Of a DNA stretch of 32,443 bases, positions 5,459 through 22,779 are shown piece after piece. The position numbers and the translations under genes were made by a program. Origin of the DNA: an uncultured Acidobacteriia bacterium (lineage in GTDB: Bacteria > Acidobacteriota > Terriglobia > Bryobacterales > Bryobacteraceae); contig CAIRBY010000551.1 of the NCBI GenBank assembly GCA_903876865.1, positions 1-32,443 on the forward strand. The letters run 5' to 3'. The notes under the pieces are model-generated. The model did not search any database. It saw nothing but the letters and a program-made list of their open reading frames with translations, and had not been told where the DNA came from. Position 1 is the first letter of the stretch, and every line of letters starts with the position of its first letter.

Positions 5459-8400
5459 ATGCCGAAATATCTCTCTCTGCTGTGTCTTCTTGCCCTGATG
5501 GGCTGTTCGCTCCGGCGCGATCCGGCGAGCCTGAGCCGTGGCCCTGCCCTGCCCGCGCAACCCGCTTCCCAACCCGCCAATGCCTCGCTAATGGACGAGG
5601 ACGAGGGCGATGCAACGAGGTTCTTCCTGCAACGGCGCCTCCCCACGGGAGCCACGGAGTTGCCCGCAGACCGTTACAGCGCTGCCAGAAAGCAGGTGGA
5701 CGCCATGCCCGTGCGGGCTGCCGGGACCGGCTCATGGACTTCACTCGGTCCGGGAAATCTCGGCGGACGCACGCGCAGCCTGGTGATTCATCCGCAGAAC
5801 CCCGCGATCATGTACGCCGGCGCCGTAACCGGCGGTATCTGGAAGACGGAGGACGGCGGCAAGAATTGGAACCAACTCACGGACTCGCTGTTGCCGGTGC
5901 TCAACATTGGTGCGCTGGCGATGGATGCGACGAATCCGGCATCGCCGACGCTGTATGCGGGCACCGGCGAATGGTACACGAGCTTCACGGGCCAGGGCAT
6001 CTTCAAAAGTACGGACGGCGGCGCTTCCTGGAATAACATCATCAAGACCAGCGCGTTCACCTATGTAAATAAGCTCGTGATCAGCCCGAACAATTCGCAG
6101 CGCATCTACGCGGCCACCTGGACCGGCATCTGGCTGAGCAGCAACGCGGGCTCCACCTGGACGCAGTTGCTCAACGCCAGCAAGGTATACGCCGGTTGCC
6201 AGGACCTGGTGATTCGCACCGATCAGACCACGGACTATGTGTATGCCTCCTGCACCGGCGCGGCTAGCGGAGCAGCCTATACCATCTGGCGGAACCCGGA
6301 TGCGGCAGGTGCCGGGACCTGGACGATGGTTCATTCCGTCGCGCACATGGGCCGGACTTCGCTGGCTCTTGCACCCTCCCAGCAATCCACCATATACGCC
6401 ATGGCTACCAGTATCGGCGGCGACCCGAATTACGAGAACGGACTGCTGGCCGTGTTCCGGTCCACCGCGAATGGAGATGCGGGCTCGTGGGATACACGGG
6501 TGGCCAACACCGACCCGAACATCATGAATACGATCCTGCTGCAGGATTCGCGCAACGTGATTCAGACAGTCTGTTCGGGCGGTGCGCCGGTGTTCAGCAG
6601 AGGGCAGGGCGGGTACGACAATCTGCTGGCAGTGGATCCCCTGGACCCCACCCGCGTGTGGGCGGGCGGCGTGGACCTCTTCCGCAGCGACGATGGCGGC
6701 GCCAATTGGGGAGTGGCTTCGCTGTGGCAGATCGGGCGGACTTCCAACCAATTCGCGCACGCGGACCGCCATGTGATCACTTTCCACCCCGGCTACAACG
6801 GCACGACCAATCAGACCATGTTTCTGGGCACCGACGGCGGCATCTTCCGCACCGACAACGCGCGCGCGGCGGTCTCCACGGGAGCGCAGGCGGCGTGCCA
6901 GACGCAGTTCGTGGCCAACGATGCGGTGACCTGGATCAACCTGAACAACTCCTATGCGGCCACGCAGTTTTACCACGGTGCGGCTTACCAGGGCGGACAG
7001 GTGTATATGGGCGGATCACAGGATAATGCCGCATCCCGCGGCAACGATGCAACGGGAGTCAACGGCTGGGTACCCTTCTCCACCGGCGATGGCGCAGCCG
7101 TGGCAGTGGACCCTGCCGATGCGAATGTCATTTTCGAATCGACCCAGAACCTGGCGTTGCGGCGGTCGCTTGATGGCGGAATCACACTCACCAGCGCGGT
7201 GAACGGCATCACCGAGACCTCCACTACGTTTCCCTTCATCGCCTATCTGGCGATGGATCCCAACGATGGACGCCGCATGTACCTGGGCGGCACGACGAAT
7301 CTGTGGCGGTCCACCGATTCGGGCGCTTCCTGGAGCGCGGCCGCGCCTGTGGAAGCTTCCAGCCACGTCACGGCAATTGCCGTCTCGCCGTTCGATTCCA
7401 ACGCGGTCTTATTCGGCACGCAGACGGGCTACATCTATAGCAACGGCAACGCACTCACTAGCAATGGCAGCACTTCGTGGAAGTCCACACGTCCACGCAC
7501 CGGGGCGGTTGCGGGCCTGGCCTTCGACCCCACCAATCCCAACGTAATGTACGCAACGTATTCGACCCTGAACTCCGCGCCTACGGATGGTCACGTGTAT
7601 AAGAGCGTGGATGGCGGCGCGACGTGGCAGCGCTCGGATGGCTCGGGCTCAACCGCGGTCGCGGATATGCCGGTCTTCCGCCTTTTGGTGAATCCGTATA
7701 ACCCCGCCACCCTGTATCTGGGCACGGAATTAGGACTGCTCACATCGAGCGATGGCGGAATCAGTTGGGCGCGCGATGCGGCCTTTTCCAACGTGATCGT
7801 GGAAGACCTGGCATTCGATCAAGGCAGTTCCAGCAACTGGCTGTTCGCGTTCACCTATGGGCGCGGCGCGTTCCGCATTCCTCTCGAGGGCGCGCCTTCG
7901 ACCTCGTGCAATTACTCCATCACGCCTGCGACACTGGCAGCGGATGCATTTGGCAGCGTGGCGCCGGTGACGGTCAACACGGCGCCGGGTTGCGCCTGGA
8001 GCGCTCTGCCGGGGACGCTGTTCGGATTCCAATCGCCCGCGCAGGGCACGGGACCGGGTACGGCTTACGTGGTCATTCCGGCTTACAACGGCACCGCCAC
8101 CCGCGCCGACACGTTGATTGTCGCCGGCATCTCGCTGCCGGTACAACAGAACACGGCTACGCTGACGACCACCCGCGCGGATTCGTCGGCGGCGCCGATT
8201 GCGCTCAACATCCCCGGTTTCGCGTTCACGGATACGCGCCCTCTCACCTCCGGTGCCGCCGATCCGGTACACACCTGCACCGGGTCGGCCGATTACAAAA
8301 CCGCGTGGTGGAGCGTTACCCCTTCCATTTCCGGCACGCTGCAGTTGCGCGCGTGGGGACGCCGGTACGATGTGGCGGGGAATTCCGGAATCGTGCTGAC

Positions 8401-9571
8401 GGCCTATGCCGCCACCGCACCGGCCACCGAACTGGTGTGCGCCACGGTGGCGCGCGATACGGCGGCAGAGGTGGATGCGGTGGTGAGTTTCGGCGTCACC
8501 GCGAACACGACCTATCTGATCGAAATCAGCGCGACCGGCAACACTTCCGTGGATGGCGGGGCAACGTATCTGATCCCCGGCATGGGCAATCCGCCGGTCA
8601 CGGTGACGCTGACGCCCAGTTCCGCGAGTCTGACGCCGGCGGGACGCGCGCAGCAGTTTACCGCGCAGGTGAAGAACTCGGGCAATGGCGCGGTGCGCTG
8701 GTCGCTGAACCCGCCGGTCGGCACCATCACGCAGAACGGTCTCTACACGCCACCGCTCTCGCTGAGTTCGCCGGTTGCGCTGACGGTCACGGCGACGGCG
8801 TTTGCCGATTCGAGCAAGCAGGCCTCGGCGACGGTCGACCTCGCGGCCAGTGTCGCGGTGGCAGGGCCGGCCATCTCTCAGGTGGTGAGCAACACCGGGG
8901 AACGCCCGCTGATCGCACCCAACAGTTGGATTGAAGTGAAGGGAGTGAACCTCTCCACCACGACGCGCCTGTGGCAGGGCAGTGACTTCGTGAACGGACA
9001 AATGCCCACCAGCCTGGATGGGGTCAGCGTGCTGGTGAACGGCAAGCCGGGTTTTGTCTATTACATCAGCCCGACGCAGGTGAACGTGCTGACATCGCTC
9101 GATGCGGCACAGGGCACGATCCCGGTGACGCTGACGAACGCTCTCGGCACCTCGCCTGCTGCGACTGTCAGTGCGCAAGTGTATGCACCGGGCTTCTTTT
9201 CTTTCAACGGCACGTATGCAGCGGCCACGCACGCGAATGGGAGTCTGCTCGGCCCCACCAGCCTGTACGCTGGATCAACATCACCGGCCAAACCCGGAGA
9301 GGTGGTGATTCTCTATGGCAGCGGCTTCGGACAGACCTCGCCCGCTCTGGTGACTGGCGCCGCGGCTCAAGGGGGGACGCTGCCCGCGCTCCCGCAGGTC
9401 ACGATCGGGAATCTGCCCGCGAGCGTGCAGTTCGCGGGAGTCATCTCGCCCGGCTTGTACCAGTTCAACGTGGTAGTGCCGGCTGCGCTCGCCGATGGCG
9501 ATCACGCGCTGGTGGCGACCTACAATGGCGCCAGCAGCCAGCCCAACCTTCTGCTCACCGTACAGCATTGA
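5459..9571 (+). CDS. Giant Asp-box (BNR) propeller lipoprotein with BACON/Ig domains and Solibacter-type C-terminal domain
   Basis: This 1370-residue protein starts with a lipoprotein signal (lipobox LMGC, C16). Residues ~80-815 carry at least seven Asp-box motifs, such as TEDGGKNW, STDGGASW, SDDGGANW, SVDGGATW and SSDGGISW, indicating one or two sortilin- or sialidase-type beta-propellers. A BACON-like Ig domain with paired cysteines follows (~816-905), then a beta-sandwich (~910-1045), a Big-type Ig domain (~1050-1130), and from ~1135 the domain matching TIGR03437. Sialidase catalytic residues were not identified, so binding or glycan recognition is as likely as catalysis. It is probably displayed on the cell surface. 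Its start is 27 bp from an alternative start of the divergent EEP gene. A palindromic repeat lies 46 bp after its stop. Confidence 0.88.
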   Translation: MPKYLSLLCLLALMGCSLRRDPASLSRGPALPAQPASQPANASLMDEDEGDATRFFLQRRLPTGATELPADRYSAARKQVDAMPVRAAGTGSWTSLGPGNLGGRTRSLVIHPQNPAIMYAGAVTGGIWKTEDGGKNWNQLTDSLLPVLNIGALAMDATNPASPTLYAGTGEWYTSFTGQGIFKSTDGGASWNNIIKTSAFTYVNKLVISPNNSQRIYAATWTGIWLSSNAGSTWTQLLNASKVYAGCQDLVIRTDQTTDYVYASCTGAASGAAYTIWRNPDAAGAGTWTMVHSVAHMGRTSLALAPSQQSTIYAMATSIGGDPNYENGLLAVFRSTANGDAGSWDTRVANTDPNIMNTILLQDSRNVIQTVCSGGAPVFSRGQGGYDNLLAVDPLDPTRVWAGGVDLFRSDDGGANWGVASLWQIGRTSNQFAHADRHVITFHPGYNGTTNQTMFLGTDGGIFRTDNARAAVSTGAQAACQTQFVANDAVTWINLNNSYAATQFYHGAAYQGGQVYMGGSQDNAASRGNDATGVNGWVPFSTGDGAAVAVDPADANVIFESTQNLALRRSLDGGITLTSAVNGITETSTTFPFIAYLAMDPNDGRRMYLGGTTNLWRSTDSGASWSAAAPVEASSHVTAIAVSPFDSNAVLFGTQTGYIYSNGNALTSNGSTSWKSTRPRTGAVAGLAFDPTNPNVMYATYSTLNSAPTDGHVYKSVDGGATWQRSDGSGSTAVADMPVFRLLVNPYNPATLYLGTELGLLTSSDGGISWARDAAFSNVIVEDLAFDQGSSSNWLFAFTYGRGAFRIPLEGAPSTSCNYSITPATLAADAFGSVAPVTVNTAPGCAWSALPGTLFGFQSPAQGTGPGTAYVVIPAYNGTATRADTLIVAGISLPVQQNTATLTTTRADSSAAPIALNIPGFAFTDTRPLTSGAADPVHTCTGSADYKTAWWSVTPSISGTLQLRAWGRRYDVAGNSGIVLTAYAATAPATELVCATVARDTAAEVDAVVSFGVTANTTYLIEISATGNTSVDGGATYLIPGMGNPPVTVTLTPSSASLTPAGRAQQFTAQVKNSGNGAVRWSLNPPVGTITQNGLYTPPLSLSSPVALTVTATAFADSSKQASATVDLAASVAVAGPAISQVVSNTGERPLIAPNSWIEVKGVNLSTTTRLWQGSDFVNGQMPTSLDGVSVLVNGKPGFVYYISPTQVNVLTSLDAAQGTIPVTLTNALGTSPAATVSAQVYAPGFFSFNGTYAAATHANGSLLGPTSLYAGSTSPAKPGEVVILYGSGFGQTSPALVTGAAAQGGTLPALPQVTIGNLPASVQFAGVISPGLYQFNVVVPAALADGDHALVATYNGASSQPNLLLTVQH

Positions 9572-9655: not shown

Positions 9656-11131
9656 CTAGCCAGCGCGGAGGGCGGAGCCTTTGCGGTCCATTGCTTTGGG
9701 GCCGCTTAGGGGGACGAAGAAATCCTGCCAGACGAGTTTGCACTCCTCGACCATACGCAGGCCGTACTCGCAGCGTCCCAGATCGTCGGGAGAGGTATTG
9801 TTGGTGCCGAAGGTGAACTTGGCGCCGCCCGCCTTGGCCAGTTTAATGAAAGATGGGCTGGGCAGTTTGTAGCGATTGTTGATTTCGATGGCGACACCGT
9901 TGCGCACCGCGGCATCGATCACTTTTTTGCGCCTCTCGGGCGTCCAGAGTTGCTCGTAGTCCTTGGCGATGACCTCGGGAAGGAACGTCGGGTTGGCGTA
10001 AATGTCCACCGGTTCGTGATCGAGAATTCCCACGGCGCGATCGACGAGAGTGTCCATGAACTCCTGCACGTCTGAGATGGTACCCACTTCGTCGGGAATC
10101 CAGAGGCGCATACGCTTGCCGTGGTTGTCGGTCCAGGTCATGGAATCGGTGAAGATGTAGTCGAAACGCGCGGCCATGCCGCGGGAGAACATCTGCGTCC
10201 ATTCGCGGCCTTCGGCCTGCATGGCGACGAAGCAGGGCTGCCCCTTCATGCTATCGAGATACTGCACGGCGCTCTGGTCGTCCTGCACCGGGAAGCCTTT
10301 GCCGCAGTTGACCGCAATGCCATACTGAATGCCATCGCGCCGCGATTTGGCGAGCGCCTGCTCCAGGGTCAGGCCCAGTTTCAGGTGGACGTGAAAATCC
10401 GCCACGGGAATGTTGTGGCGGCCTACGTTGACGATCTGCTTGAACACGTCGTCCGCCACGGGCGCGGTCGCGCCGGGAGCGGTAGCGTCATCGGGAAGCG
10501 GGCGTACGCGTACGCTGCGGAAGCGCGCGTGGGAGCCATCGTTGTGGCATTGCAGCGCGAAGGTCCCGTGTTGCAGGAAGCGGCCCTTTTCCGGACCGTC
10601 GGGGATGAACGGCGGCGTGGGTTCAGTGTAATCCACCACGAGCATGCCATCGATGCGGATCTGCACGTTCTTGCCGCGCACGATCGCGTTGAGCTTGAAC
10701 CACTGATCGTCCGCCACGAACTGGCGGTAGACGTTGCGGATTCCATACAGCGAACCCGTCTTCTTGCGCTCGCGATAGCCGCCATCGCCGGTGGCGGTGT
10801 TGTTGATCTGAATCTCGAAGCCCTGGTAGGGGAAGTCACGCTCCTGAAACGCGGTATGGAAATAGACGCCGGAATTGCAGCCCGGCCGGGCGAGCGCCTC
10901 GACTTCCAGTTCGAAGTTGCGGAAGTCCGCGCCGTTCACCGGCCCGGTATAGAAGAGGTGGGAACGTGGCCCTTCGGCGGAAAGCAGGCCGTTCACGACC
11001 TTCCAGGAAGCCTTGTTCTCGCTAGCCTGCCAGCCTTGCAGGCTGTGGCCATCGAAGAGTTGGGCCCAACCGTCATCGGCGGCAGAGAGCCCGAGCGCGG
11101 TCATGGCGCCCACAAACATACGGCGTGTCAT
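9656..11131 (-). CDS. Secreted DUF1080 (3-keto-disaccharide hydrolase-type) domain fused to a PHP-like domain
   Basis: From the ATG at 11131 this is 491 residues; an in-frame GTG five codons upstream is the alternative. The N-terminus (TRRMFVG, then a hydrophobic stretch) looks like a Tat or Sec signal. Residues ~24-210 form a DUF1080 concanavalin-like domain (LFDGHSLQGW, NSGVYFHT, YQGFEIQIN, DQWFKLNAIVRG). Residues ~240-470 resemble a PHP metal-dependent phosphoesterase: DFHVHLK (245-251), FDYIFTD (323-329), AIEINN (414-419) and GTNNTSPDDLG (441-451). In usual PHP proteins the last motif is GSDAH, so two expected metal ligands are changed. A polysaccharide-degradation role is plausible for the first half; catalysis by the second half is uncertain. 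A linker at ~211-240 joins them without any frame break. Confidence 0.85.
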   Translation of the reverse strand: MTRRMFVGAMTALGLSAADDGWAQLFDGHSLQGWQASENKASWKVVNGLLSAEGPRSHLFYTGPVNGADFRNFELEVEALARPGCNSGVYFHTAFQERDFPYQGFEIQINNTATGDGGYRERKKTGSLYGIRNVYRQFVADDQWFKLNAIVRGKNVQIRIDGMLVVDYTEPTPPFIPDGPEKGRFLQHGTFALQCHNDGSHARFRSVRVRPLPDDATAPGATAPVADDVFKQIVNVGRHNIPVADFHVHLKLGLTLEQALAKSRRDGIQYGIAVNCGKGFPVQDDQSAVQYLDSMKGQPCFVAMQAEGREWTQMFSRGMAARFDYIFTDSMTWTDNHGKRMRLWIPDEVGTISDVQEFMDTLVDRAVGILDHEPVDIYANPTFLPEVIAKDYEQLWTPERRKKVIDAAVRNGVAIEINNRYKLPSPSFIKLAKAGGAKFTFGTNNTSPDDLGRCEYGLRMVEECKLVWQDFFVPLSGPKAMDRKGSALRAG

Positions 11132-11268: not shown

Positions 11269-12411
11269 ATGAAATTTCGAACCCTAGCCATCCACGCCGG
11301 ACACGAACCCGCCGACCATCAGGGCGCTGTCATGCCGCCTATCTACCAGACCTCCACCTTCGCGTTTCAGGGAGTGAACCGTCCCGGTCCATTCGACTAT
11401 TCGCGCAGCGGCAACCCCACGCGCAAGGCCCTGGAGACCTGTCTGGCCGCGCTTGAGGGCGGAACGGCGGGCTTCGCATTCGCCACCGGCATGGCCGCCG
11501 AAACCACGGTCCTGATGCTGTTTCGCTCCGGCGCGCGCATCGTGGTGCAATCCGATCTATACGGCGGCACGTACCGTCTGCTGGAATCGGTGTTCCGCGA
11601 GATCGGCGTCGAAGCCGTGTACGTGGACCTGCGCGACCTGGCTGCCGTAGAAGCCGCGCTCTCCGCCGGAGCGCAGGCGGTGTGGATCGAGTCTCCCACC
11701 AATCCGCTGATGAATCTTGTCGATCTGGCCGCGGTATCCGTGCTGGCGCATCAAAATGGCGCGATCACGGTCTGCGACAACACGTTCCTCTCCCCTTATT
11801 TCCAACGCCCCTTCGAGTTCGGCGTGGATGTAATCGTCCACTCCACCACCAAGTACATCAACGGGCACTCGGACGTAGTGGGCGGCGCAATCGTAGTGCG
11901 CGATCCGCATCTGGCGGAGAAGATCAGCTTCCTGCAGAACGCGATGGGCACGTGCGCGGGGCCGCAGGATTGCTACCTGGTGCTGCGCGGCGTGAAGACC
12001 CTCGCCGTACGCATGGAGGAGCACCAACGCAATGCGCTCGGCGTGGCGCGCTGGTTGGAGGCTCACCCGAAGATCGAGGCGGTGCTGCACCCCGGCCTGC
12101 CCTCGCATCCGCAGCACGAACTGGCGCAGCGCCAGATGCGCGGATACGGAGGCACCTTCTCTTTCCGCGTTAAGGGCGGCCAAGCCGCGGCGTTCCGGCT
12201 GCTGGAAGCGGTGAAGGTATTCACGCTGGCCGAATCGCTCGGCGGCGTAGAATCGCTGATTGAACATCCGGTGACCATGACTCACGCTTCGGTCGCGCCG
12301 GCAACTCTGGATGCGATGGGCATCACGCCGGACCTGATCCGGATTTCGGTCGGACTGGAGGATCTCGAAGACCTGATCGCCGATCTCGATTCGGCGCTGC
12401 AGAAGATCTAG
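11269..12411 (+). CDS. PLP-dependent trans-sulfuration enzyme (cystathionine gamma-synthase/lyase family)
   Basis: This 380-residue protein belongs to the Cys/Met metabolism PLP enzyme family, which catalyses beta/gamma-replacement or elimination on homoserine esters, cystathionine or methionine. Seen are YSRSGNPT (44-51, phosphate-binding region of the neighbouring subunit), SDLYGGTYR (95-103), ESPTNPL (141-147) and HSTTKYINGHSD, where K195 is the Schiff-base lysine. SLGGVESLIEHP and the C-terminal RISVGLEDLEDL complete the signature. Length is normal for the family. Whether it acts as synthase, lyase or sulfhydrylase cannot be decided from motifs alone. The gene stands alone, divergent from the DUF1080 fusion. 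There is no obvious SD before the ATG. Confidence 0.9.
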   Translation: MKFRTLAIHAGHEPADHQGAVMPPIYQTSTFAFQGVNRPGPFDYSRSGNPTRKALETCLAALEGGTAGFAFATGMAAETTVLMLFRSGARIVVQSDLYGGTYRLLESVFREIGVEAVYVDLRDLAAVEAALSAGAQAVWIESPTNPLMNLVDLAAVSVLAHQNGAITVCDNTFLSPYFQRPFEFGVDVIVHSTTKYINGHSDVVGGAIVVRDPHLAEKISFLQNAMGTCAGPQDCYLVLRGVKTLAVRMEEHQRNALGVARWLEAHPKIEAVLHPGLPSHPQHELAQRQMRGYGGTFSFRVKGGQAAAFRLLEAVKVFTLAESLGGVESLIEHPVTMTHASVAPATLDAMGITPDLIRISVGLEDLEDLIADLDSALQKI

Positions 12412-12811: not shown

Positions 12812-15800
12812 ATGACCCTTCCGGCCTCACGAAACCTCCGCCAGTTGTGCACCTTGACCGCGCTTTTCCTCGCCTGCGCGCATGCCGCGGTCAAACCGCT
12901 CGCGATCTCCCAGACCCGTTACGAATTGCGCTCAGGTGAACCGGCGGAGTTCGCCGCGCCGGCGGAGACGCTGGATTTCCTCCTGCACGCCGTTTCCCGT
13001 AGCGCTGAATTTGCCGATGGCTCCGCCGCCGGGTTGGTGCTCGCGCCCTCGTCGACGGGAGAGCGCCTGTTGCTGGCAGCACCAGCACGCGTGGAACCGG
13101 GCGAGTATACGGTGCAGGTGACGGCAACTTCGCAGACCGGCGAGACCCGGCAGGTCGCGCTCAGCGTCCTGGTCAAGCCGCGGGCCGGAATCCCCTCAAA
13201 CGCCAAGCGGCCTCCGGTGGTGCTGCTGAACGGCTGGATCGCCGGCTTTGACGGAACCTGCCCGGTGGCCAACAGTTCCGCGGAGACCTTTGGCAACCTC
13301 GCCAATTATCTGGTGGCTGATGGTGTCCCCGCCGTCTACCTCTTCGACAATTGCCTGGAAGACGCGGGCAAACCGGTAGAGACGCTGGCCGCGGATCTGG
13401 CTTCGTATCTGAAATCCATCAAATACGATAACGGCGCTCAGGTGCCCCAGATCGATCTCGTGGCGCACAGCATGGGAGGCCTGATCGCGCGCGCATATCT
13501 CAGCGGACTGCAGGCGAACCAATCGCTGGTTCCGCCCGCGACCACCCTCGTCCGTAAACTGGTGCTGATTGCGACGCCGAACTTCGGCTCGTTTGTCGCC
13601 GGCAACTACTCCACTTCTCTGCTCTCCGGTTCCCAGGGCGCGGAACTGATTCCGGGCAGCGCGCTGCTCTGGAACCTGGCCACCTGGAACCAGCTCGGCG
13701 ACGATCTCCGCGGCGTAGACGCCATCGCAATCGCGGGAAACGCGGGCACCTACACACCCTCGCTATCCTCCAGCGTGCTTTTACAGAATGCCAGCGATGG
13801 CTTTGTCTCCCTCACCAGCGCGTCGCTCGGCTTCGTGGCGCAACAACCCGCGGTAACACGAGTAGTGCCCTATTGCCACGTGGACCCGGCCGCCTTCGCC
13901 AACTCCAGCCTGGGAATTTTTGCCTGCAGCGCGCCCGGAATCGCCAATGTCACGGCGACCTCACATCCCACCAGCCAGATCGTACGCTCGTTCCTGGCGG
14001 GCACCACGGATTGGAAGAGCATCGGAACCGCGGCCGACGCCGATGCCTACCTCTCCAAGAACGGCGGCATGTATTTCACGCTGGTCAATTCGGCCGGCGC
14101 ATATCTCTCCGATGTGACCGCAGTGCAGTGGGGCACCGTGGCGCTGACAAACGGCGGCGATGCTGGCGTAATTTACTACGGCGACTTCCTGTTCGGGAAC
14201 GGGCAGTTTCTGGCCACGAGCACCGCCGCCGGGAGAGTCAATTGCGGCTCCGTCGTGGAGCCGGCGCAATTCTTCACGGCGGCACGCTGCAAGATCGGGA
14301 CTGCGATCGCGAGCGTGGGGCCGCTAAACAGCGGCGCGGCGCACACCATCAACGCGGGCACCACGATCACGATCACAGGCGCCACCTTCGGTTCCCAGTG
14401 CAGCGGCTGCCAGGTCTCGGCCACAGCGGCAGGCTCCACCACCAGCCAGGTGCTCACCATCACCTCCTGGAGCGCAACGGAGATCAAGGCGGCACTGCCG
14501 GCGAGCCTCACCGGAATGCTGACCATCACCGTGCGCGCAACCAACGGCACGGATTCGATCGCTGTAATGGCTGTCACGCCGGCGATTCTCTCCGCGGCTC
14601 CCGCAAGCCTCACCCTGCAGTACGCGTATCTTCAGGGAGGCAGCGCGCCCGCGGCGCAGAGCATTCAGATTTCGAACACGGGAAGCGGCGCGCTCTCCTG
14701 GACGGCAACGGCGAAAGATGCGTGGCTCACGCTCTCCGCCGCCTCCGGCACCGCGCCCGCCACGCTCACTGTCACCGCGATTCCAGGCACCCTTGCGCCC
14801 GGGACGTACGCCAGCACGGTAACCATCACCGCAGCCAGCGCCACCAACAGCCCGATCACGTTTACCGTGACCCTGACGGTCTCCACGCCGCCGGCCATCC
14901 TGGTCGCCGCGCCGCTGGAACTCAATTTCCAATACACCTATGGAAGTGCGCTGCCGCCCTCACCGGCGATCACAATCGCCAATGGGGGCGGCGGGACGCT
15001 CTCATGGACCGCCGCCGCCAGCGATTCGTGGATAATCCTTTCCACTGCATCCGGCACGGCTCCCGGCAGTCTGGTGGTGGCGTTCAATCCGGCGAACCTG
15101 GCCCAGGGAACCTATTTGGGTTCGATCCAGATTGCGGCGGATGGCGCCGATGGAAGCCCTGCCACCGTGGCGGTGACGCTGGTGGTGCAAGGTGCGCCGC
15201 CCGCCCCCGTCATCAGTGCCGTGGGCAACGCCGGCAGTTTCCAGCCGGGCGTGGCCTCCGGGACCTGGATCTCCGTCTTCGGCACCCATCTCTCGGCCAT
15301 TACCTATTCCTGGCAATCCACCGACTTCGTACACAGCCTGCTGCCCACTACCCTGCAAGGCGTCTCAGTGACGGTCAACGGGATGCCCGCCTACGTGGCC
15401 TATATCAGCCCGACGCAAATCAACCTGCTGGCGCCGGACGATGCGTCCACGGGCAACGTGCAGGTGCAGGTCACCACGGCGCAACAGGCCAGCAACAATT
15501 TCAGCGCCGCAAAAACAGCCTACTCGCCCGCCTTCTTCACCTATGGGGCGGGCGCCTATGTGGCGGCGCTCCACTCCGCGGATTATAGCTTGGTAAGCAC
15601 GGCGCAGCCTGCAAAGCCGGGCGAGACAATTCTGCTCTACGGCACCGGCTTTGGCCCTTCCACGCCCGCGCTGCCTTCGTCGCAACTGGTGCCCGGTTCG
15701 CAGCCACTCGCAGCGGCGGTTCAAGTCACGGTCGGCGGAGTTCCGGCAACGGTGAGCTTCGCCGGTATCGTCTCCCCTGGATTGTGTCAATTTAACATCA

Positions 15801-15895
15801 CCCTCCCGGCACTGCCTGCCGGCGATGCCGCCGTAGTGGCTACGTTAGCGGGAAACACTACACAGAGCGGTGTTTCGATCACAATTCAACCCTAG
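12812..15895 (+). CDS. Giant secreted alpha/beta-hydrolase (lipase-like) with BACON domains and Solibacter-type C-terminal domain
   Basis: This 1027-residue protein starts with a signal peptide (hydrophobic 11-25, AHAA cleavage region). After an Ig-like segment (~26-128), an alpha/beta-hydrolase domain of the lipase/PGAP1-like type begins at VVLLNGWIAGFDG (~135-147). It has the nucleophile motif AHSMGG with S220 and IATPNFGS at ~254-261. An IPT/TIG-like module (~490-585) and two BACON-like repeats (~600-695 and ~700-790, each with a LSWTA core) follow. From ~798 the C-terminal domain is clearly homologous to that of the protein at 5459-9571; both have a WQ-x2-DF segment and YISPTQ. Predicted role: extracellular or surface esterase acting on lipids or polymers. 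The acid and histidine triad members were not assigned. No SD precedes the ATG. Confidence 0.85.
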   Translation: MTLPASRNLRQLCTLTALFLACAHAAVKPLAISQTRYELRSGEPAEFAAPAETLDFLLHAVSRSAEFADGSAAGLVLAPSSTGERLLLAAPARVEPGEYTVQVTATSQTGETRQVALSVLVKPRAGIPSNAKRPPVVLLNGWIAGFDGTCPVANSSAETFGNLANYLVADGVPAVYLFDNCLEDAGKPVETLAADLASYLKSIKYDNGAQVPQIDLVAHSMGGLIARAYLSGLQANQSLVPPATTLVRKLVLIATPNFGSFVAGNYSTSLLSGSQGAELIPGSALLWNLATWNQLGDDLRGVDAIAIAGNAGTYTPSLSSSVLLQNASDGFVSLTSASLGFVAQQPAVTRVVPYCHVDPAAFANSSLGIFACSAPGIANVTATSHPTSQIVRSFLAGTTDWKSIGTAADADAYLSKNGGMYFTLVNSAGAYLSDVTAVQWGTVALTNGGDAGVIYYGDFLFGNGQFLATSTAAGRVNCGSVVEPAQFFTAARCKIGTAIASVGPLNSGAAHTINAGTTITITGATFGSQCSGCQVSATAAGSTTSQVLTITSWSATEIKAALPASLTGMLTITVRATNGTDSIAVMAVTPAILSAAPASLTLQYAYLQGGSAPAAQSIQISNTGSGALSWTATAKDAWLTLSAASGTAPATLTVTAIPGTLAPGTYASTVTITAASATNSPITFTVTLTVSTPPAILVAAPLELNFQYTYGSALPPSPAITIANGGGGTLSWTAAASDSWIILSTASGTAPGSLVVAFNPANLAQGTYLGSIQIAADGADGSPATVAVTLVVQGAPPAPVISAVGNAGSFQPGVASGTWISVFGTHLSAITYSWQSTDFVHSLLPTTLQGVSVTVNGMPAYVAYISPTQINLLAPDDASTGNVQVQVTTAQQASNNFSAAKTAYSPAFFTYGAGAYVAALHSADYSLVSTAQPAKPGETILLYGTGFGPSTPALPSSQLVPGSQPLAAAVQVTVGGVPATVSFAGIVSPGLCQFNITLPALPAGDAAVVATLAGNTTQSGVSITIQP

Positions 15896-21144: not shown

Positions 21145-22779
21145 ATGTCTCGTGAACTCCTCATCCAATGTCCAGACGGGCAGACGAAAACCGTTCCGCT
21201 CACCGGATCCCGCATCTCCATCGGCCGTTCCAGCACCGCGGAACTCTCGTTTCCGGAGGATGCCGGACTCTCTCGCCAGCACTTTGCCTTCGAACCCGAG
21301 GGCGAAGACTGGACGGTACAGGACCTTGGCAGCAAGAACGGTACGTTCGTCAACAATATCCCGCTCAAGGCGCGCCTGATTTTGCGCCCGGGTGACCGCG
21401 TCACCGCCGGGCACCTGGTGATTGTGTATGAACCGGGCGCGGACGACGCAGCCAAAGTGGTGGTCTTCGATGGCAACGAGACCTCTTCACCAACCACCTC
21501 GACCGTGGTGACCAGCCTGGAAGGGGCACTGTCTAACCAGACGCTCGCAATTGAACGCGGCGGCGCCAAGACTTCCGCACCGCTGCAGGCGCTGATTCGG
21601 GCGGGGCAGGAACTGAGCGAGAACCGGCCGTTGAATGAGCTCTTCCCGGTGATTCTGGATCTGGCGATCCAGGCCGTGAATGCGCAGCGAGGCGTCCTCA
21701 TGATCCTCGAGGGGGACACACTCGTTCCCAAGGCCCATAAGGGCGATGGCTTCCGCATCAGCACCGCGGTCCGCGACAAAGTGCTGCATGAAAAGTCGTC
21801 GATTCTGGTGCGCGACGCGCAGTTGGACGATGCCTTCAAAGGCCGCATGAGCATCGTGGAACAGAAAGTGCACACTATGATGGCGGCGCCGTTACAGACC
21901 AAGGAGCGTATCATCGGCCTGATCTACCTGGATTCGCCGTTCATTCTGCGCGAATTCTCCAAAGACGATCTGAGCCTGCTCACGGTGATGGCCAACATCG
22001 CGGCCATCCGCATCGAAAACGCGCGCCTCGCCGAAGTGGAGCAGGCCGAACGCATCATGGCGCGCGATCTCTCGCAGGCAGCCGAAATTCAGGGCCGCAT
22101 GCTGCCCGCCAAGGCGCCCGAAGTTCCCGGCGCCGAACTCGCGGGTTTCAACCTTGCCTGCCGCACGGTGGGCGGCGACTACTATGATTTCTTCAAGTAT
22201 CCGGATGGCCGCGTCGCGCTCACGCTGGGCGATGTTTCCGGCAAGGGTATGCCAGCGTCGCTGATGATGATGGCACTGCACGCGCGCGTGCAGGTACTCG
22301 CGGAAGACGCTCAGAACCTGGCCACATTCATGACGCGGATCAATAAGGCGACCTGCGCCAACTGCCCGTCCAACCGTTTCATCACGTTCTTTTTCTCGAT
22401 CCTCAACGTGGCCACGGGCGAGCTCGCCTATGCCAACGCGGGGCACAACCCGCCCATCATCGTGCGCGCCAATGGCGAGGCAGAGATGCTGCCGGGCGGC
22501 GGCCCCGTGCTCGGCATTCTCTCCATCGCGCCCTACAGCGAGATGCACGCCAAATTGGAACAGGGTGACATGCTGGTGCTCTACAGCGACGGCGTGACCG
22601 AAGCCAACAACATCGCCTACGAGGAGTTCGATGAGGAACGCTTCATCGAGGTACTCCAGGCCAACCGCACCAAACCCGCGACTGAAATCGTGCAGGCCGT
22701 GATACAGGCGGTTACCGAATTCACCGCGGGCGCTCCACAAGCGGACGATATTACGCTCGTCGTCGCGAAACGGCTATAA
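21145..22779 (+). CDS. FHA-GAF-PP2C (RsbU/SpoIIE-type) serine phosphatase
   Basis: This 544-residue protein joins three domains. The N-terminal FHA domain reads phosphothreonine (GRSS 27-30, SRQH 43-46, SKNGT 63-67). A GAF sensor domain is at ~150-300. The C-terminal PP2C-type phosphatase has GGDYYD (343-348), GDVSGKG, YANAGHNPP, LYSDGVTE (D482) and DDITLVV (D534-D535), the metal-binding aspartates expected for an active enzyme. Such proteins usually dephosphorylate anti-anti-sigma factors in partner-switching cascades, or counteract Ser/Thr kinases; no kinase, antagonist or sigma gene is nearby. An AAAAGGA SD lies 6 nt before the ATG. Its TAA is directly followed by the GTG of the next gene. 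Confidence 0.93.
   Translation: MSRELLIQCPDGQTKTVPLTGSRISIGRSSTAELSFPEDAGLSRQHFAFEPEGEDWTVQDLGSKNGTFVNNIPLKARLILRPGDRVTAGHLVIVYEPGADDAAKVVVFDGNETSSPTTSTVVTSLEGALSNQTLAIERGGAKTSAPLQALIRAGQELSENRPLNELFPVILDLAIQAVNAQRGVLMILEGDTLVPKAHKGDGFRISTAVRDKVLHEKSSILVRDAQLDDAFKGRMSIVEQKVHTMMAAPLQTKERIIGLIYLDSPFILREFSKDDLSLLTVMANIAAIRIENARLAEVEQAERIMARDLSQAAEIQGRMLPAKAPEVPGAELAGFNLACRTVGGDYYDFFKYPDGRVALTLGDVSGKGMPASLMMMALHARVQVLAEDAQNLATFMTRINKATCANCPSNRFITFFFSILNVATGELAYANAGHNPPIIVRANGEAEMLPGGGPVLGILSIAPYSEMHAKLEQGDMLVLYSDGVTEANNIAYEEFDEERFIEVLQANRTKPATEIVQAVIQAVTEFTAGAPQADDITLVVAKRL

Follow-up and report, generated by a model that had tools for sequence, protein, structure and literature searches.

A PHP-like barrel fused to a DUF1080 domain has lost most PHP metal ligands and probably serves a new function in sugar breakdown

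What becomes of a PHP domain when its metal motifs are rewritten and it is joined to a carbohydrate-active partner? This question is raised by a gene in a stretch of 32,443 nucleotides from an uncultured Acidobacteriia bacterium (here called the window), which is the entire contig C551 of a genome of 7.27 Mb in 1052 contigs. A first reading, made from the letters alone (the sequence-only reading), had noted that the second half of the encoded protein carries GTNNT in place of the usual last metal motif, GSDAH, and had offered two ways out: either the domain binds fewer metals and has a new activity, or it has become a binding module. The gene, its parts, and its direct neighbors are as follows.

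9656-11131, minus strand: DUF1080 and PHP-like fusion gene, 491 amino acids (open reading frame and translation; start codon ATG at 11131, last base of the stop codon at 9656)
11075-11131, minus strand: Tat-like export signal, residues 1-19 (MTRRMF...; read by eye from the sequence)
10502-11071, minus strand: PF06439/DUF1080 (3-keto-disaccharide hydrolase) domain, residues 21-210 (profile and predicted fold)
9692-10414, minus strand: PHP-like barrel, residues 240-480 (predicted fold, hhalign, and NCBIfam matches below the cut-off)
5459-9571, plus strand: 1370-residue protein with a Sortilin-Vps10 match, adjoining the fusion gene on the opposite strand
11269-12411, plus strand: Cys/Met-metabolism PLP enzyme, adjoining the fusion gene on the opposite strand

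A GTG 15 bases upstream of the ATG is a second in-frame start candidate. Its source genome shows 5 matches to the gene, of which only the gene itself is full-length, as well as 22 matches to PF06439 (21 over the cut-off, the fusion gene's own included) and 55 to Gfo/Idh. None of these 55 lies on the fusion gene's contig, and no 3-keto-sugar pathway gene adjoins the fusion gene in the window, both neighbors being on the opposite strand. Two large proteins near the gene (5459-9571 and 12812-15895) each have TIGR03437 Soli_cterm at the C terminus (E 1.2e-52 and 7.3e-60, respectively), the latter also having a lipase match and a BACON-type match, and a 544-residue protein at 21145-22779 shows partial FHA and SpoIIE-type phosphatase matches, all below the cut-off.

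The sequence-only reading had described an exported protein in which a PHP-like domain is joined to a DUF1080 domain, and this description is supported by the PF06439 profile, the PHP fold, and hhalign for the two domains and by an export-like (Tat-like) signal at the N terminus. Judging from this signal, the fusion protein is probably exported via Tat; a rough pattern test of the 75 residues that precede residue 22 found RRx[FLMIV] in 62 of 81 fused rows, and of 9 relatives in which the PHP-like domain stands alone, 4 have a TIGR01409 (TAT signal) match above the cut-off. Residues 21-210 are a member of PF06439 (E 9.8e-35, 120.7 bits against a cut-off of 26.8). The nearest PDB folds to the predicted model of this domain span Z 20.0 to 21.8, from BT2157 (3osd, Z 20.0) to 9fbe (Z 21.8, rmsd 2.4 over 183), and BT2157 and the 3-keto-glycoside eliminase/hydratase entries 9fbe and 8rr2 match it in sequence as well as in predicted fold. 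Two further relatives, 8v31 and 8tda, are titled 3-keto-2-hydroxy-glucal hydratase, and the 3-keto-glycoside pathway is reportedly treated in a Nature paper of 2024. The binding module CBM66 also resembles the predicted DUF1080 fold (Z 18.8). The DUF1080 chains among the PDB matches comprise 197 to 431 residues and are too short for the PHP-like part; 4jqt consists of two DUF1080 stretches. In PMC9007349, DUF1080 proteins are linked to 3-keto sugars, and one characterized member is named an endo-xanthanase/lichenase, so not all of them are 3-keto enzymes. No paper in the literature searched joins DUF1080 or 3-keto-disaccharide hydrolase with a PHP domain, PMC9007349 covering the DUF1080 side without PHP.

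Structure prediction, set beforehand as a possible refutation of the PHP assignment, returned a PHP fold and not a non-PHP one. The AlphaFold2 models reached a pLDDT of 94.9 and a pTM of 0.92 (64 aligned sequences) and, for the C-terminal domain alone, 94.4 and 0.91 (55 sequences). When the latter model was compared with the PDB by VIA-align, the best 12 entries were all PHP proteins (Z 17.2 to 22.2), headed by the histidinol phosphate phosphatase of T. thermophilus (2yxo; Z 22.2, rmsd 2.5 over 226) and followed by PolX (PHP domain of 3auo; Z 20.9, rmsd 3.0 over 214), HisK, and YcdX (1m65; Z 18.4, rmsd 2.9 over 201). Foldseek on the barrel model likewise returned PolX (E 3.6e-8, the best match) and YcdX (E 4.0e-5). 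Next after the PHP proteins in VIA-align came Rpp30-type RNase P/MRP proteins (Z 10.3 to 13.6), which are non-catalytic relatives of PHP. Amidohydrolase and TatD folds, tried as candidates, were rejected at Z 10.0 and below, against the values just given for PHP; PF01979 (Amidohydro_1) matched weakly in 3 of 55 domain members, with a best E of 0.0072. In hhalign against five canonical PHPs, the fused family scored 98.8% (E 9.5e-17, columns 16-247) and the stand-alone relatives 99.5% (E 1.8e-22). Taken together, the predicted fold and this sequence homology clearly place the C-terminal domain in the PHP superfamily by fold and descent. It shares with that superfamily a barrel over nearly the whole domain, HxH, EIN, and the order of the motifs; DFHVHLK (residues 245-251) and AIEIN (414-418), which the sequence-only reading had listed as kept together with the PHP motif order, are indeed in place.

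Standard family models register this kinship only below their thresholds. Pfam matched no family, and no PHP model, on the window's PHP-like domain at E values up to 10, and over 55 domain members it returned 22 scattered weak families, none a PHP model. NCBIfam PRK08392, which is titled "hypothetical protein" and which we take to be a PHP family, matched residues 398-464 with E 9.7e-9 and 35 bits (cut-off, 212), and the PHP-domain model PRK07945 matched the window protein with E 0.0018 and 17.7 bits (cut-off, 250). Sub-threshold NCBIfam matches were present in 8 of 9 stand-alone relatives, with none in L236, and a sub-threshold match to Pfam PHP_C in 1 of the 9 (E 0.038). TAT models apart, no curated PHP phosphoesterase or nuclease model of Pfam or NCBIfam exceeded its cut-off in the proteins tested. 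The PHP fold and PF06439 are both known kinds; the PHP-like family, for which no Pfam or NCBIfam model scores over its cut-off in these proteins, is probably undescribed.

The metal site was read from an alignment of 116 non-redundant members (88 fused, 28 stand-alone) with 15 PHP/PolX sequences taken as canonical, where "canonical," "PolX," "fused," and "alone" are labels assigned in this analysis. Matches that covered under 200 profile positions were excluded from the 116, as were rows whose 100-residue core was identical, and the window's own gene was represented by a fetched locus of the same gene. The nine PHP ligands, as given in PMC3666897, are H, H, D/H, H, E, H, C/H, D/N, and H. The corresponding segments of the window are the following.

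10385-10393, minus strand: His247-x-His249, PHP ligand positions 1 and 2, kept (alignment)
10304-10309, minus strand: Asn275-Cys276, site of the TDH His, position 4 (alignment and hhalign)
10199-10219, minus strand: Q305-A-E-G-R-E-W311, position-5 Glu replaced by Gln305, with new conserved acids and a Trp (alignment)
10136-10147, minus strand: D329-S-M-T332, position-6 His replaced by Met331 (alignment)
9986-10006, minus strand: DIYAN380PT, position-7 His (of xHP) replaced by Asn380 (alignment)
9878-9886, minus strand: E416-I-N418, common to canonical PHPs too (alignment)
9794-9808, minus strand: GTNNT (residues 442-446) at the GSDAH site, PHP positions 8 and 9 (alignment)

GTNNT does stand where canonical PHPs have GSDAH, as the sequence-only reading had it; however, the change is not confined to that motif, since alignment with the 15 canonical sequences finds 7 of the 9 ligands of the window protein replaced and only His247 and His249 left. 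On this alignment, the whole metal site has been rebuilt, and GTNNT is one element of that change. Measured against the consensus in PMC3666897, Asn444 itself fits the D/N of position 8, position 5 is Gln, and positions 3, 4, 6, 7, and 9 are replaced or absent; the full set of nine ligands of a metal-dependent PHP phosphoesterase or nuclease was not found in the window protein. His247 is present in 87 of 88 fused and 28 of 28 stand-alone members (115/116) and His249 in 86 and 28 (114/116), while position 3 has no counterpart in the family alignment. Position 4 falls in the fused members on either Asn275 (87/88) or Cys276 (71/88), the MAFFT register being uncertain by one; Asn275 is favored because hhalign puts the EH of the stand-alone relatives on the canonical DH, and column 275 holds His in 15 of 28 stand-alone members. 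The Glu of position 5 (in the motif GxE), found in 15/15 canonical sequences, is Gln305 in 87/88 fused and 28/28 stand-alone members (115/116). Retention of this Glu as E307 (87/88 fused versus 18/28 stand-alone, with a loss in 10/28) was considered and rejected, as alignment and hhalign register place Gln305 there. At position 6, the His of GSVH (14/15 canonical) has given way to Met331 in 83/88 fused members, and at position 7 Asn380 is found in 87/88 (stand-alone: 17 Asn, 6 His, 5 Trp). Asn444 replaces the Asp of position 8 in 87/88 fused members (stand-alone: 19 Asn, 5 Asp, 4 Ser), and the His of position 9, which is Thr446 in the window, is A, G, T, or S in 80/88 (stand-alone: 10 His, 9 Arg, 5 Gln, and four others).

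Other positions are kept throughout. E416 is found in 116/116 family members and 15/15 canonical sequences, W311 (88/88 fused, 28/28 stand-alone), D329, and W396 each in 116/116, and R400 in 115/116; extra conserved segments around R340-W344 and W396-T397 are missing from the canonical PHP rows. Unlike canonical PHPs, the family combines the replacement of seven ligands with an export-like signal. The suggestion that the domain binds fewer metals was too mild, because two carboxylates have become amides and almost all of the fused clade lacks the His ligands outside HxH. Stand-alone exported relatives retain parts of the ancestral site, and their motifs (GSDTR, GSNIH, SHP) look like partial or intermediate stages of its loss. 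One stand-alone subgroup, L229-L233, keeps Asp at position 8 (GSDTR/GSDSR), with Trp at the HP site and Met replacing E307.

The fusion, which the sequence-only reading had called unusual, is not rare: a search of genome contigs gave 423 confirmed relatives, of which 80 were kept, and in 80/80 the alignment exceeds 350 residues and reaches into both domains (three are cut short by the end of their contig). The survey that had been proposed found it in MAGs from several phyla, Acidobacteriota, Verrucomicrobiota, and Planctomycetota among them, the labels being Bryobacterales and other Acidobacteriota, Verrucomicrobia, Pirellulales, Sedimentisphaerales, KSB1, and Neomarinimicrobiota, with binning errors possible; contigs from Arcobacter and Nealsonbacteria MAGs are probably mis-binned. 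At E ≤ 0.001, matches occurred in 11 of 199 genomes sampled from the window's phylum (six strong, five PolX-like), in 24 of 194 from the phylum of L068's genome (ten strong), and in 6 of 117 from the order of L077's genome; in the window's family, a hand count of rows gave 83 of 200 genomes with a match at E ≤ 1e-20. A tree of 85 rows, which left out rows above 72% (fused) or 90% (stand-alone) identity and 5 of the 15 canonical sequences, sets the family apart from canonical PHPs (100/99), with bootstrap values not settled and long canonical branches. On this tree the fused form needs three changes, and a 52-row set (96/94) of 49 fused and 3 stand-alone members looks as if the fusion arose once and was undone twice. 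Outside the tree, L242 joins DUF1080 to a barrel that, by its motifs, is of the type carried by L156 and L157, and the fusion may therefore be older or have arisen twice.

Further hints came from the genes beside the relatives, whose counts are approximate because genes were called by a rough script and some calls are probably not genes. Within two positions of 27 stand-alone loci we counted 99 genes, and the commonest family among them was Gfo/Idh, of the exported type (6/99 genes, 6/27 loci): adjacent on the same strand at L127, L128, L129, L227, and L228, and adjacent on the opposite strand at L230. The density in the window's genome predicts 0.8 to 0.9 such genes (Poisson P 2e-4 to 3e-4, assuming independent genes); the cases fall in about three clades, and as three events P is about 0.05. 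PF06439 accounts for 2/99 genes, one of them at L128, where the order is PHP-like, Gfo/Idh, DUF1080. In a later set of five Pirellulales loci, 2 of the 3 stand-alone genes (L239 and L240, by eye close kin of each other) have Gfo/Idh directly upstream in the same orientation, and 0 of 2 fused genes have it, by eye, within two positions. L243, of 1318 residues, begins with a beta-agarase-like part (4bq2, E 6e-95), after which come a stretch that matches PF06439 weakly (23.3 bits, below the cut-off of 26.8) and the PHP-like domain. Fused genes were surveyed at 72 of 80 loci, taking the nearest gene on each side (135 genes, 167 families). No conserved neighborhood was found among these 135 adjacent genes; AP_endonuc_2 and three zinc-alcohol-dehydrogenase domains were the most frequent (5/135 each), AP_endonuc_2 being expected 0.8 to 0.9 times and singled out post hoc from the 167 families, and Gfo/Idh is absent from the 25 families listed, hence at most 2/135. 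Among single loci, stand-alone L133 and an AP_endonuc_2 gene are divergently oriented; in L128, 1382-3376, which lies upstream of the PHP-like gene, encodes 664 residues with D-Ala-D-Ala-ligase-type and SET domains; a GH127 gene lies upstream of L228 and a look-alike upstream of L227 (PF07944, 2/99 genes); and the fused gene of L153 is followed by a protein that by eye resembles these two.

How, then, is this barrel to be understood? Since many relatives in other bacteria share the ligand loss, we think that the old barrel has probably taken on a new function in the breakdown of sugars. The fusion to DUF1080, the proximity of Gfo/Idh, and the conserved polar set are best read as marking the barrel as another worker on 3-keto substrates. 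The accessible part of PMC10628242 describes a comparable logic for AtOGE and CGE, which are Mn2+-dependent TIM-barrel beta-eliminases of 3-keto-glycosides: C3 oxidation, elimination in a barrel, and hydration, with an A. tumefaciens operon that holds a Gfo oxidoreductase, there reducing 3-keto-glucose. AtOGE and CGE differ in that, in that part of the paper, they are not named PHP and their metal site is intact. Our leading interpretation, tentative as it is, is an exported two-domain enzyme of a 3-keto-glycoside route, whose barrel represents an undescribed PHP family with a rebuilt, sugar-handling site. A glycoside would be oxidized at C3, the bond broken by elimination, and the product then hydrated, with the DUF1080 domain as the putative eliminase/hydratase-type partner. 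The trinuclear metal site would have been taken apart (Gln for Glu, Asn for Asp, and Asn, Met, or Thr for His), and the new conserved set of the fused clade (HxH, Q305, E307, R309, E310, W311, D329, N380, W396, R400, E416, N444) may form a sugar-handling active site whose residues share one pocket and in which the barrel would catalyze or assist a further non-redox conversion of the 3-keto substrate on which the DUF1080 domain also works. We infer this pathway for the window's gene, and with it catalysis, substrate, metal content, the shared pocket, and the order of steps. Several findings weigh against it: the window's gene has no pathway neighbor, Gfo/Idh is scarce beside fused genes and its enrichment near stand-alone ones shrinks when counted as three events, DUF1080 relatives include an endo-xanthanase/lichenase and a resemblance to CBM66, E307 and positions 7, 8, and 9 vary among stand-alone members, and a few fused relatives (L006, L067, L071, L072) lack NN at 444-445. 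As to the choice between new activity and binding module, conservation and the context of the relatives favor a working site.

On the binding-module view, the barrel would be a pseudo-enzyme: a carbohydrate-binding or structural module that holds substrate or stabilizes the DUF1080 enzyme. The loss of 7/9 ligands would suit such a module, as would polar amides, Arg, and Trp for sugar binding, and its next structural neighbors after PHP are the Rpp30-type proteins. A kept yet inactive PHP domain also has precedent: E. coli DNA polymerase III carries a degenerate PHP domain with a structural role, in which the fold is retained and metal ligands are lost (PMC3666897). According to that paper, however, 5/9 positions are replaced there, variant domains often have Arg, and the protein is a polymerase, whereas in the window's family 7/9 are replaced, several by amides, in carbohydrate-tied proteins. 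Moreover, the domain also stands alone in 28/116 members, many with export-like signals and some beside oxidoreductases, which counts against a pure DUF1080 scaffold, since such a scaffold would not need them, and the invariance of W311, D329, W396, and E416 (each 116/116) argues in the same direction. We regard a pseudo-enzyme as possible but less likely than the leading interpretation.

A more specific form of the catalytic interpretation, which we consider unlikely as it stands, would make the barrel a metal-free or one-metal lyase or isomerase for 3-keto sugars, its ligands mostly turned to amides, and thus a new catalytic class of PHP. If so, it would add to the AtOGE- and CGE-type eliminases another barrel by which 3-keto-glycosides are cleaved or processed, in some proteins within one polypeptide with a hydratase-type domain and even a glycanase. 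That the barrel might still be a metal-dependent PHP phosphoesterase, with a site reduced to one metal (HxH, perhaps N444 and the new acids), is suggested by the retention of HxH in 114 to 115 of 116 members and by the PolC of G. kaustophilus, which has Asn at position 8 in a PHP domain that still binds metal (PMC3666897, Table 1). Yet the same source reports that PHP domain as inactive, position 5 is Gln in 115/116, positions 4, 6, 7, and 9 are replaced across nearly the whole fused clade, and a phosphate link was not seen in the gene context, which makes this explanation improbable.

A strain-specific mutation or a decaying domain, finally, is very improbable and was rejected, given NN at 444-445 in 74 of 78 rows reaching the site (window counted once), N444 in 87/88 fused relatives, and a dN/dS of about 0.1. 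Homologues with GSDAH would have pointed to such a mutation; the fused homologues instead share GTNN or GSNN. Seven of 82 rows lack NN: three are contigs ending before the site, L006 has ND, and L067, L071, and L072 depart, which would fit decay, as would L117, the fused gene of G200 (contig C134) that is split over two frames by a frameshift or an assembly error. These three fused relatives, with motifs such as GTANET and GTANRT, are possible paralogues losing the site. Mean identity over 3240 pairs is about equal in the DUF1080 (60.1%) and PHP-like (61.5%) parts, with L001, a locus that duplicates the window's gene, left out of the identity and position counts. Against L006, L007, and L008, dN/dS is 0.091, 0.122, and 0.163 for the C-terminal domain and 0.062, 0.095, and 0.19 for the N-terminal domain, values that are rough since dS is 0.8 to 1.9 in the three pairs. 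The PHP-like domain is under purifying selection.

To our knowledge, all known PHP enzymes act on phosphate esters through metals. If the leading interpretation is true, this conserved exported family, with its metal site removed and its ties to the oxidation and cleavage of sugars, would illustrate the conversion of a phosphoesterase barrel into a sugar enzyme, and since stand-alone relatives preserve apparent intermediate stages (GSDTR, GSNIH, SHP), each step along the path would be open to a test. The family could also identify a missing component of a glycan-degradation route in Acidobacteriota, Verrucomicrobiota, and Planctomycetota.
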